From Heterocephalus glaber (taxonomy: Eukaryota > Chordata > Mammalia > Rodentia > Bathyergidae): 64,000 nt of DNA. The DNA lies in the NCBI RefSeq assembly GCF_000247695.1, contig NW_004624742.1, positions 6,579,049 through 6,643,048 of the forward strand, given 5' to 3'. The notes under the pieces were generated by a model. The model was not told where the DNA came from. It was given only the letters and a program-made list of their open reading frames with translations, and did no database searches. Positions 15,703 to 25,322 of this stretch are shown in pieces (the first letter of the stretch is position 1; every line of letters starts with the position of its first letter). The position numbers and the translations under genes were made by a program.

Positions 15703-15813
15703 TAATAATAGCTAGCATTTATTGAGTTTATTAAATATTACACACTATACCAAGTGCTTTGTAAATTTTACCTAAATTAGCTTCCATGAAGTAGGTACCA
15801 TCATTAGTCCTAC
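15703..15813 (+). mobile_element. MIR, left half
   Basis: 'aatagctagcatttattgag', 'taccaagtgctttgtaaa' and 'gaagtaggtaccatcatt' follow the MIR consensus. The element is cut at 'tcctac' and resumes without loss at 17174. Confidence 0.85.
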
Positions 15814-16403
15814 ATCAAGAGCAATTCTACATAAATTTGGGGGGAAAATCATTTTATAATTAAAGTATGACTATAGCTGACTAAGGTTCAACCTCACCTT
15901 GCATTCAGAAACATAACTCTGTTTTGCCTCCAGTCACAGCTGAGGCCTCAAGGGTCCCATGATGCTGCGGCACTCAATGGCAAGATGGCATCAGCTGAGA
16001 CATCCTGGTTCTTTGAGAACTGAGTAGTAATACAAAAGAGAAAGGATTCCCCTGGGGAGAGTCTAATTCCTTGTCAAACATAACTCATCCCACTCACCAT
16101 TGTAAGAATGCTCCCCGTATAGTCCTCCTCAACAGAAGAACCTCATGACTTAAGATTTTCATCAGCTCCTGATGTACTTTGACCACCACCCGCTACATCA
16201 TCTGGAGGGAGCACTCCAGTTATTGTGTGTACCCAATAAATAGTGGCTAGCCCGGATAGTCTTTGTCTTTGCCCACTTTGAGGCACTGACCTCCTGGCCC
16301 CCCATATACTTTGAAATTACTCAAGTTTCTGTTGTCTGTTTTTCTTTAGCCCTTGCTGTCCCCCCTTTCTAGGTAGTAGGAGGATTGATTGCTCTCTGAT
16401 ATT
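15814..16403 (+). mobile_element. LTR of a class II endogenous retrovirus
   Basis: Related to the solo LTR at 578-1134 (shared 'gagcaat.ctacataa.ttt', 'acataactc', 'gatgctgcgg'). AATAAA at 16235-16240 supplies the polyadenylation signal. The right end abuts a primer-binding site at 16404. The left end starts at a short target duplication inside a MIR; its terminal TG has mutated. No second LTR follows. Confidence 0.8.
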
Positions 16404-16421
16404 TGGCACCCAACCAGGGGC
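16404..16421 (+). promoter_or_regulatory. Retroviral primer-binding site for tRNA-Lys(CTT)
   Basis: TGGCACCCAACCAGGGGC, directly after the LTR. It is complementary, with three changes, to the 3' end including CCA of tRNA-Lys(CTT), the primer of several betaretroviruses. Confidence 0.85.
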
Positions 16422-16458
16422 TTGAACCCACGACCCTGGGATTAAGAGTTCCATGTTC

Positions 16459-16541
16459 AGGCTGAGGATTTAGCTCAGTGGTGCCACAGCCTGCCTCACA
16501 GGCCCAAGGTCCTGAGTTTGATCCCCGGTATCAAAAAAAAA
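16459..16541 (+). mobile_element. ID-like SINE splitting the tRNA copy
   Basis: Starts GGCTGAGGATTTAGCTCAG. Target 'agttccatgttc' (16447-16458) and 'agtcccatgctc' (16542-16553) are two copies of the tRNA anticodon-stem region. Confidence 0.92.
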
Positions 16542-16553
16542 AGTCCCATGCTC

Positions 16554-17173
16554 TACCAACTGAGCAATATATTCTCCAGGCTCAATTACCCAATATCCAT
16601 TGTCTGTACAAAGACCTGAATCTCATTCACATAATCTCTATCAATAATACTAGGCATAACAGTGAGACCTTTTAAATCTAAAGAAGCCTTTCCTATAATC
16701 AGTCCAATAGTATTTTTAGGTGGAGGTCCCCAAATCCCAGTGGGAATGGCAACTAGCTTGTTGCCCCCAATGAGATTTACCTTTTGAGTCACTGGTATAT
16801 CTAGTACTGCGCTCCCTGAAGTTCCTCGAGTGAGGGAGGCAATGTTCCTCCAGGGATCCAAGCCTGTTGTCAGGTCTGGACTGGGCAAGTCTGACTGAGG
16901 TTTTGACCAGCAGTCAGACTGAAGGCCTGATTCCTCTTTGGGGTCACCCTTAGTATTTAGGGGGCCTGGGGTTGAGCTCCCTTTCCATTTCCCAACAGAG
17001 GAGTCCCATCTCTATACTATTTAGATCAACAATGTTTAGCCCAATGCTTACCCCTTTCACATCTTGGGCAAAGACCTGGTTCAGCCTTATTATTTTCCAA
17101 ATTAGGATTAGTGGAAGTTCCAAAGGGTTAGAGCTATTACCTTGGCTTGCAGACATACATTGTCGGTGAAGAG
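16554..17173 (-). pseudogene. Inverted gag/pro fragment of the retrovirus (nucleocapsid knuckle, dUTPase)
   Basis: The minus strand reads in retroviral order. A nucleocapsid zinc knuckle of the form C-x2-C-x4-H-x4-C is at 17070-17029. A linker with stops follows, then a trimeric dUTPase domain at about 16850-16554, recognisable by IPTG, GLI and KGL segments and the IIDRDY motif. The frame slips by one base near 16592, after which the final dUTPase AQL motif is still readable. In betaretroviruses this domain sits at the start of pro, just after gag, so the order is right. The orientation is opposite to the LTR at 15814. Breaks: stop codons after the knuckle, the frameshift, truncation within gag on one side and within dUTPase on the other. 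Not functional. Confidence 0.8.
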
Positions 17174-17315
17174 CCCTACTTTAGTGATGAGAAAATAAGG
17201 CACAGAGAGAATAAGTAATTAACTCAAAGTCCCTTGGTCAGTAAATATTACACTCAGTGTTCAAACCAGGCAGTCTATTCTGGGGTCTTAACTTTTTCCC
17301 ACTAACCATGCTGTC
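17174..17315 (+). mobile_element. MIR, right half
   Basis: Continues the MIR cut at 15813: 'tgatgagaaaataaggcacagagaga' aligns without gap to the MIR consensus once one target copy is removed. Ends near 'aaccatgctgtctcc'. Confidence 0.85.
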
Positions 17316-17983: not shown

Positions 17984-18065
17984 TTTTTTTTTTTTTTTTT
18001 TTTGGTGGTATCAGGGATTGAACTCAGGACCTTGAGATAAATCCACTGAGCTAAATCCCAGGCCT
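17984..18065 (-). mobile_element. ID-like SINE with internal deletion
   Basis: Poly(T) then 'ggtatcagggattgaactcaggaccttgag', then directly 'ataaatccactgagctaaat'; about 15 bases of the middle are missing. Target 'agaagactata' on both sides. Confidence 0.88.
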
Positions 18066-18555
18066 GAGAAGACTATATCTTAGAATAAAGGATAAGTAAT
18101 TTAAAACAAATAAAAGTTTTGTATGGAAAGACTAAAAACAACTGTCCAAATTGTTTCCATTTCATCATGAACCAGCAGAAATTTCCATCATGAATTGGCA
18201 TTTGAGAATCTCCTGCAGAAACTTTCTCTCCACCTCCAGCTCTTAAGCACTGTGACTTTAAGCATGATTTTCCCATTTGTAATTATTTTAGAGGTTTCTA
18301 GTTGTTGGATCTTTGTAAATTAATCCTTTCTAAGCTTATCTTTAAAGGCTTTGTTACACTGTGCATGGAATGAATATTGAAGATTTTACAGTGAGAATAG
18401 TAATCTGTGGACACAGAATTACAGTATCGGTACCGCCTCATAACACTTCGCAAGGCTCCAGTCTCCCTCACACCCACCCCTTGGAAACAGAACAGTGATT
18501 CTGATTTCTTCCCAGACTCTGTCAGATCATGGGGCTCAGGCTTAAGCTGCAGCTG
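18066..18555. other. No recognisable gene
   Basis: Unassigned sequence. The minus reading frame at 18073-18276 shows no domain. Confidence 0.6.
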
Positions 18556-23837: not shown

Positions 23838-25322
23838 TGGTGGCTCACATGTTCTCAGACCACTGGGAGTGCCAGAGACCTTTCCAGAAGTTCTGCGAGG
23901 TCAAAATCATTTTCATAATGACTGCACTGATGATGTAAAAGCACTGGTGGTTAAAACTTCTTGCACCTTAGCATAAATCAACACAATGGCACCAAACTGT
24001 GCTAGCAGCCACAGTGTTCAGATTCTTCACTCTACGCACTTGTGAGGAGTAGGGGGAGGGATGAAAAAAAAACCTGTTTCACTTAACAGTGCCTTTGATT
24101 AGGCAGGGAAAGTTATTTCTTTTATTAAATCATTGCCCTTGAGTACACGTCTTTCTAACATTCTGTGTGACAAATGGAAACATGGATAAAGCACTTCTGC
24201 ATACAGAGGCCTGAAGGTTGTTTTGAAGAAAAGCATAGTTTGATTTTTTGAGTTGCAAACAGCTGCTTTTATTGTAAAACATTGTTTTTCACTTGAAAAA
24301 AACTGACAAACTATGGTTATTCAAACTTGGGAAGTTGGCAGGCATTTTCCTGAAAATGAATAAATTGAACTTGTCACTTCAAGAAAAATAACTGACAGTG
24401 TTTGTTGCCAAAGATAAAACTCAGGGTTTCAAACAAAAAGTAGAATGTTAGAAAAACTGTGACCACCAACATGAGCTCAACAGCTTCCAAGCCCTTAAAA
24501 ACTTAAATAGGATTGATTGTGATATTAATTAATGTGATTTTTAAATATTGTGTAATGAAATAATGTCAACTTTTAGAAAATCTACACAACTCAGTGAACT
24601 AATCTTTTCTGTTTATTTATTCATTTTTTGGAACCAGGGATCGAACTCAGTACTTGCGAGGCAAGTGGCGGAACCACTGAGCTAAATCCCGAGCCCTATC
24701 TTTTCTAAGTAACTGATCATAAAGCTACAAGATCATGTGTGGGTAAAGGATTTGGTCAAAGTGTAAGAGAACCTGATGAATTTTAATATAAACAAGGAGG
24801 AAAAGTTCATTTACATGGTTTCGGATTCCCCATTTCAACTTACTTTTTAAAAACTACCATTTGTTTAATAGCCAAAAATAAATAAATAAATAAACAAAGC
24901 CACAATTATCAGAAAAGGGCATTAAAGCGCTCTTCTTTTCAGTCATATTTTCTATACAAGGCCTGATTTCTTCATATATCTCAATGAGAAAACAGATTGC
25001 AGTGGACTAAATTCAGAAACAGATAATGAGAATTCAGCTGTGTTCAATTAATCCAGAGAGTCTCAAAAATGTAACATATTGCCATTAGTTGGTTTGGAGA
25101 GCTAGCTGTTTTTCATAAAAATATTTATGTTAAGATGTAATGGTTTTATTATTGGTATTTTAAATAAATTAATAAATTCACATTTAAATTATTTTTTCAG
25201 TTTTAATTTCTGGTATAAAAATATTGGTGGAGATGACCCATATAAACACAAGCTCTTTGAGATTATCAATATTTTTTTAAGGGTTTAAAGGAGTCTTTTG
25301 ACCCAAATGTTTGAGAACTGCT
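23838..25322 (+). mobile_element. hAT-superfamily transposon with transposase relic
   Basis: Right end 'tttgagaactgctg' pairs with a decayed left end as hAT terminal inverted repeats. The interior reads, with many breaks, as the C-terminal half of a hAT transposase of the ZBED/FAM200-like kind. Recognisable phrases: a stretch around 'ctgacaaactatggttattc' (24303-24322), 'gacagtgtttgttgccaaagat' (24395-24416) and the dimerisation-domain region around 24810-25050. The 3' untranslated part before the right end is also preserved. It is interrupted by a SINE at 24622. Transposition would need an intact transposase; this copy is dead. I cannot assign the exact family. Confidence 0.7.
24622..24696 (-). 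mobile_element. ID-like SINE in the hAT relic
   Basis: 'ggaaccagggatcgaactca' to 'gctaaatcccgagccct'. Target 'atcttttct' on both sides. Confidence 0.9.

Follow-up and report, generated by a model that had tools for sequence, protein, structure and literature searches.

Structure of the Window Element

How did a retroviral long terminal repeat (LTR) come to be followed by a long antisense copy of the tRNA that primes reverse transcription, and then by retroviral pro and gag in the opposite orientation? This arrangement lies in a 64,000-nucleotide stretch of the Heterocephalus glaber genome (hereafter, the window), and it very probably preserves in the germ line a retroviral reverse transcription event that failed by way of over-extended plus-strand strong-stop DNA. 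The features of the element are as follows.

15807-15812: candidate left target-site duplication, GTCCTA, matching 17173-17178 at 5/6 positions
15813-16401, + strand: LTR (U3-R-U5), first bases CA (for TG) and last bases TA, from genome copies and the ends of solo LTRs
16404-16421, + strand: Lys(CTT) primer-binding site, 18 nt, from relatives and tRNA alignment
16404-16458, + strand: complement of tRNA-Lys(CTT) nucleotides 76-22, 49/55 identical in the alignment
16447-16458 and 16542-16553: 12-bp duplications of the SINE, AGTTCCATGTTC and AGTCCCATGCTC, read from the sequence
16459-16541, + strand: SINE with an A tail, inside the anti-tRNA, from the sequence and other copies found
16539-16565, + strand: complement of tRNA-Lys(CTT) nucleotides 36-10, 25/27 identical, counted on the alignment
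16559-16565: junction microhomology, ACTGAGC / GCTCAGT, 7 bases at most
16559-17172, - strand: dUTPase-coding start of pro and zinc-finger end of gag, both inverted, from genome copies, Pfam, and PDB
17173-17178: candidate right target-site duplication, GCCCTA, 5/6, ambiguous

The U3-R-U5 sequence, the binding site, and the tRNA complement form one run, the composition of an over-extended plus-strand strong-stop product. The LTR starts with CATCAAGAGC, as against TGTYGGGAGC or nearly so in ordinary solo LTRs of the family, and is separated by the dinucleotide TT from the Lys site at 16404. The original prediction that this LTR and site run on into the complement of tRNA-Lys(CTT) was borne out: from the end of the 18-base site to 16458 the similarity scored 31, whereas none of 5000 shuffles scored above 12, and 16543-16566 scored 21 against a shuffle maximum of 13, the copy reaching nucleotide 10 of the tRNA. 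The tRNA-Lys(CTT) sequence used in the alignments is a presumed reference, with independent support from ARAGORN, which called tRNA-Lys(ctt) at seven sister loci (see below). Read from the alignment, the base opposite A58 is T, as in a faithful copy. The first bases of 16539-16565 are shared with the SINE tail and the last seven with pro, and ARAGORN called no tRNA in the window. The SINE at 16459-16541 splits the anti-tRNA and is the younger insertion. Insertion of a tRNA retropseudogene or SINE by LINE-1 was considered as the source of the tRNA copy and rejected, as the copy runs on from the LTR without a break and lacks a separate tail. Elsewhere in the window, a further SINE of the same type lies in the opposite orientation at 17997-18067, and two short pieces of a related LTR, the only other LTR matches in the window, occur on the forward strand at 580-740, 77% and 85% identical to parts of the window LTR.

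The pro and gag sequences do run in the opposite orientation, as had been proposed: of four reverse-strand pieces searched in Pfam and PDB, two gave matches and two gave none. The matches were a dUTPase, at 1.9e-12 in Pfam and with entry 2d4l as its best PDB match (E 1.3e-16), and a zinc finger of gag (zf-CCHC_5, 2.7e-7 in Pfam). A dUTPase opening pro together with a gag zinc finger, and an LTR followed by a tRNA-Lys primer-binding site in the window and its relatives, place the element among betaretrovirus-like (class II) elements; the 6-bp target-site duplication expected of that class is a 5/6 candidate in the window and 6/6 at the sister loci L022, L024, and L029. It lacks the layout of a conventional provirus, having a single full LTR and an inverted interior; there is no second, inverted LTR at its right end and no inverted LTR match anywhere in the window.

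At the junction, the original prediction of an 11-base overlap between the tRNA and the end of the dUTPase reading stood in part, in that a shared stretch exists, with a length of at most seven bases (GCTCAGT), the remainder being tRNA-derived. The match between tRNA and pro is seven contiguous bases in the relatives L009 and L011, five in L010, L012, L013, and L014, and four, counted by eye, in L016. The junction letters are GCTCAGTTGATA on the reverse strand of L009 pro, GCTCAGTTGGTA in the window, and GCTCAGTCGGTA in tRNA-Lys; because L009, the closest relative, reads GCTCAGTTGATA there, the letters GGTA in the window derive from the tRNA. At the other side, the copy ends within gag, at a point that is ambiguous because the gag relatives and the host sequence, a repeat that we take to be MIR, are similar there, a likeness that may instead account for the 5/6 match of the flanks.

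Relatives of the Window Element

The 2.59-Gb genome to which the window belongs was searched for both halves of the element, and the best 40 of 5104 candidates were scored. Among these, the LTR half matched 31 other places at 74-82% identity and the gag/pro half matched eight at 79-85%, one of them split in two pieces; none of the 39 other matches had both halves in the arrangement of the window. Ten loci (L009-L018) were taken around window-type matches for comparison. Relatives carrying both halves were thus found (L009, L012, L013, L014, and L016), and in all five the LTR and gag/pro share one orientation and an ordinary leader directly follows the 18-nt site. The others carry gag/pro alone (L010, L011, and L015) or the LTR alone (L017 and L018). 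Another locus, L029, has the LTR type of the window and an anti-tRNA reaching nucleotide 28; apart from it, the anti-tRNA and inversion appear, in the loci seen, to be special to the window locus within the family.

Recurrence of LTR/Anti-tRNA Junctions

A search of the genome for further junctions of LTR and anti-tRNA, as the original prediction had recommended, was productive. The first pattern, 33 bases representing the binding site continued past A58, with at most three mismatches, matched 17 genome places, and the reversed control pattern matched none. Fourteen were kept, namely L019 (the window), L020-L022, and L024-L033. L034 and L035, which have neither TGG nor an LTR and are likely tRNA genes, were dropped, as was L023, in which no LTR was recognized; at ∼1501-1536, L023 has a reversed 3′ part of tRNA-Lys with TGG. 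A shorter Lys(CTT) pattern matched 53 places (control, 0), of which 30 were examined; 14 were already known and 16 were new. Three of the new places (L053, L061, and L063) were kept, and 13 in which the tRNA similarity stops at nucleotides 47-53 were dropped. Among the places examined, therefore, 17 loci with an LTR and a long anti-tRNA were kept, the window included, representing several LTR types. The anti-tRNA extends to nucleotides 1-6 in ten (L020, L021, L022, L028, L031, L032, L033, L053, L061, and L063), to nucleotides 8-18 in six (L019, L024, L025, L026, L027, and L030), and to nucleotide 28 in L029. ARAGORN, run on 13 fused sister loci, called tRNA-Lys(ctt) in seven (L020, L021, L022, L027, L028, L031, and L032) and tRNA-Met in L063, with no call at the other five. 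No published description of such loci was found among the titles and abstract openings listed from open-license literature.

Several of these and neighboring loci have features of their own. In L021 (1384-1573), the anti-tRNA is preceded by no more than the start of U3, as though the middle of the LTR had dropped out during copying, and in L030 the LTR has been lost. Direct duplications of ∼130 bp flank the insertions in L026 (701-834 and 1560-1689, 88% alike, around the LTR/anti-tRNA) and L030 (818-943 and 1567-1679, 80% alike); this length far exceeds the duplications usual for integrase or LINE-1. In L050, L052, L057, L059, L060, and L064, the genomic leader itself extends the Lys site to about nucleotides 47-53, a native over-extension. 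A Lys(TTT) pattern matched three places, one of which (L038) is a tRNA gene-like match. The other two, L036 and L037, have Lys(TTT)-primed LTRs with tRNA similarity at ∼1501-1540 that extends, by eye, to about nucleotide 38, beside the hypermodified A37; the last tRNA-like bases of L036 may be part of a target duplication, and a further copy of the LTR lies in L037 at ∼2036-2473, the piece between being env as identified by eye only.

The recurrence bears on whether the window could be a conventional provirus altered by genomic inversion, its likeness to tRNA being due to a tRNA gene or SINE in the vicinity. The inverted orientation of gag/pro and the abundance of SINEs nearby would fit such a history, but 12 of the 17 loci have an anti-tRNA that begins with TGG, complementary to the CCA end, which is absent from tRNA genes (one base is changed in the other five; the pattern asked for TGG with at most three mismatches), and these anti-tRNAs adjoin several types of LTR. 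This origin is very improbable, and the sister loci described next weigh further against it.

Inverted Interiors and Inverted LTR Pairs

In five of the 17 loci (the window, L020, L022, L024, and L053), the anti-tRNA leads into an inverted retroviral interior. That of L020 (1577-2258) is 82% identical to L062 reversed, and that of L053 (1574-1827) is 87% identical to the same region of L022. L022 consists, in order, of a forward LTR, a full anti-tRNA, inverted gag and leader, and an inverted LTR; L024 consists of a forward LTR, an anti-tRNA, inverted gag and leader with a further inverted piece of pol, and an inverted LTR that ends in AAAA rather than AACA. Four pieces of sister loci were searched in Pfam: the reverse strand of L022 gave Gag_p24 (8.9e-10) and Gag_p10 (5.9e-7), L024 gave a weak RNase_H below the Pfam curated cut-off, and the fourth piece had no match. 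In the remaining 12 loci, no retroviral interior was recognized when the first 424 bases after the anti-tRNA were compared with the loci examined; over that length ten matched nothing and two (L021 and L031) matched other repeats. Autointegration, in which an LTR end attacks the viral interior, makes inversions and could on that count yield an inverted segment; however, the LTR end and the interior would then abut, whereas here the binding site and the anti-tRNA, up to the 5′ end of the tRNA, intervene, and it is hardly to be credited as the source of these loci.

Both inverted LTR pairs are bounded by perfect target duplications. GGTGTT ends the left flank of L022 and begins its right flank after the inverted LTR, and ATCTCA stands on both sides of L024 (6/6 in each), so that an inverted LTR pair with a 6-bp duplication beside both U3 ends, the mark of integrase acting on two U3 ends, is present in each. 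Flanks were compared across 16 loci, L030 being left out and L026 and L027 having mis-set left flanks: 6/6 matches were found in three (L022, L024, and L029) versus 1/240 swapped pairs, matches of at least 5/6 in 7/16 versus 21/240, and matches of at least 4/6 in 9/16 versus 100/240. Perfect 6-bp duplications at two outward U3 ends indicate that the inverted form of L022 and L024 predates integration, and later genomic inversion, which these intact duplications contradict, is therefore excluded for these two loci. LTR pieces within one locus are 93-96% identical, whereas the whole LTRs of L022, L024, and L053 share 86-89% with one another; the short U5 piece of the inverted LTR of L022 is 94.7% identical (95 bases) to L053 versus 93.75% (96 bases) to its own forward LTR.

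The tRNA as Template and Junction Matches

Virus-type and tRNA-type binding sites were compared in L022, L024, and L053. The viral version of the site, in all seven ordinary L022-family proviruses (L072-L078), is ...TGGATGTGAAT; L075 and L076 differ from it by one base. L022 and L024 have ...TGGATGTGAAT beside the inverted LTR and the tRNA version, ...TGGGGCTCAAACC, beside the forward LTR, and thus the forward side was copied from the tRNA itself. The site adjoining the forward LTR of L053 is also the tRNA version, with one base changed.

Junction matches at the sister loci are short: two bases in six of seven ordinary copies and four in the seventh for L022, 1-4 bases in seven copies for L053, 0, 1, and 3 bases in three copies for L020, and about three bases, by eye, for L024. 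At 25,244 control positions, runs at the tRNA 5′ end of at least five bases occurred at a rate of 0.00004, of at least three at 0.013, and of at least two at 0.047; at these rates, the short matches at the sister loci are singly weak evidence. The interior of L022 was also used as a query, and among the best 40 of 153 candidates the alignments of 12 of the 39 other matches start at the first query base, which falls within the tRNA end. These 12 (L073, L074, and L084-L093) and five further copies (L072 and L075-L078) have ordinary gag at the place of the junction, and in 16 of the 17 that gag is D-arm-like, reading AACTGAGC or GACTGAGC. LTR and gag have the same orientation in L072-L078; L084-L093 were each seen over 151 bases.

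Two alternatives turn on these junctions. One is that anti-tRNA and antisense gag are standing components of an inherited, replicating family, for which the families that natively extend the binding site to about tRNA nucleotide 47 and the 12 matches beginning at query base 1 could be adduced. It is scarcely believable, since those matches proved, with the five further copies, to be ordinary, D-arm-like gag, and no further instance of the window junction came up among the best 40 of 5104 candidates or in two mismatch-limited pattern searches. The other is host end joining, in which reverse transcriptase did copy the tRNA, but the over-extended LTR/anti-tRNA end was fused head-to-head to broken viral DNA and the inversion is a repair product. 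The short matches at L020, L022, L024, and L053 are in its favor, as are the right ends of the window element and L053, which fall inside gag and lack a perfect duplication; the 5-7-base match at the window junction, the D-arm-like gag at the L022 junction (16/17 copies), and the LTR pairs of single loci, which are overall closer mutually than to other loci, speak against it, and we regard it as unlikely.

Proposed Mechanism

The modified A58 (m1A58) stop presumably protects second strand transfer. In the reading that we prefer, reverse transcriptase would not have halted at nucleotide 58 of the tRNA-Lys(CTT) primer but would have copied it as far as the D-arm, so that the plus-strand strong-stop DNA (U3-R-U5-PBS) acquired a long 3′ tail of anti-tRNA. 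Normal second strand transfer would then have failed, the over-extended tail not fitting, and the tail would have annealed through the tRNA D-arm sequence GCTCAGT to plus-sense viral sequence in pro; extension towards gag, the 5′ end, would yield the order forward LTR, anti-tRNA, inverted pro-gag. In L022 and L024, extension would have reached the 5′ end, so that the DNA had two outward U3 ends and was inserted by integrase; in the window element, the copy would have stopped inside gag and been joined to the host, the LTR end perhaps through integrase and the opposite end through repair. The structure, the junctions, the tRNA origin, the recurrence, and the 6-bp duplications of the sister loci are observed; we infer the order of these events, the type of template (RNA or plus-strand DNA), and the manner in which the right end of the window element was joined. 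Read-through followed by annealing in pro and extension towards gag, the course envisaged in the original prediction, explains the order, orientation, and junction of the window element and draws its stronger support from L022 and L024. Counting against it, no extra tRNA sequence was found in integrated proviruses in one laboratory study that used an A58U E. coli tRNALys,3 primer (PMC1785368).

More generally, over-extension into the primer probably opens a recurrent side path, in which the tail primes on plus-sense viral template to form a linear product, bounded by an inverted LTR pair and having two U3 ends, that integrase can insert in the germ line, the LTR-plus-tRNA insertions without interior being a shorter form. 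The recurrence of this path is supported by the sister loci, two of which were inserted by integrase with both LTRs retained, and is the main addition beyond the window. The loci are natural records of failure of the m1A58 stop, marking the tRNA positions passed and the sites at which tails re-primed, and they show that integration is open to DNA bearing two U3 ends. They may also be an annotation trap, since tRNA-finding programs may label copies of a retroviral primer as tRNA-Lys genes, as ARAGORN did at seven loci.

Comparison With Known Systems

Loci with an LTR and a full anti-tRNA resemble the structure postulated in the model of Okada and Ohshima, who reportedly derived SINEs from tRNA-primed strong-stop DNA; there is no sign that any of the present loci became a SINE. 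According to a review, the normal end of plus-strand strong-stop DNA is at m1A58; products that reach ms2t6A37, or the tRNA 5′ end where the tRNA is unmodified, have been reported in vitro, and extension past A58 has been reported in cells with mutated TRMT6-TRMT61A (PMC13191261). As in the over-extended HIV-1 products P1 and P5, reverse transcriptase passed m1A58 into the tRNA body at these loci; in the same review, however, just P2-P4 can act as active templates, whereas here long products were integrated in the germ line and some were apparently extended on a plus-sense template (PMC13191261). The primer over-extension sequence of lentiviruses and spumaviruses likewise provides tRNA complementarity past the 18-nt site, but that stretch is genome-encoded and lies next to the site, a form seen here in other families (to about nucleotides 47-53) and not in the relatives of the window element (PMC13191261). 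Copying of tRNA joined to minus-strand cDNA, the same reaction, has been carried out in the test tube with HIV-1 cDNA-attached tRNA; that work is a laboratory assay, whereas the present loci are integrated products (PMC10986323).

HIV-1 proviruses with inversions or asymmetric LTRs are also defective, the asymmetric LTRs being ascribed to misdirected strand transfer, but unlike the present loci they are not described, in the passages considered, as having an anti-tRNA junction or an inverted LTR pair (PMC9278108). The Helenus and Ajax LTR elements combine small-RNA-like sequence, derived from small-RNA genes, with an LTR, as do the loci reported here; those are presented as groups of non-autonomous elements, whereas these are separate insertions in which a copy of the tRNA stands beside the LTR (PMC10886601).
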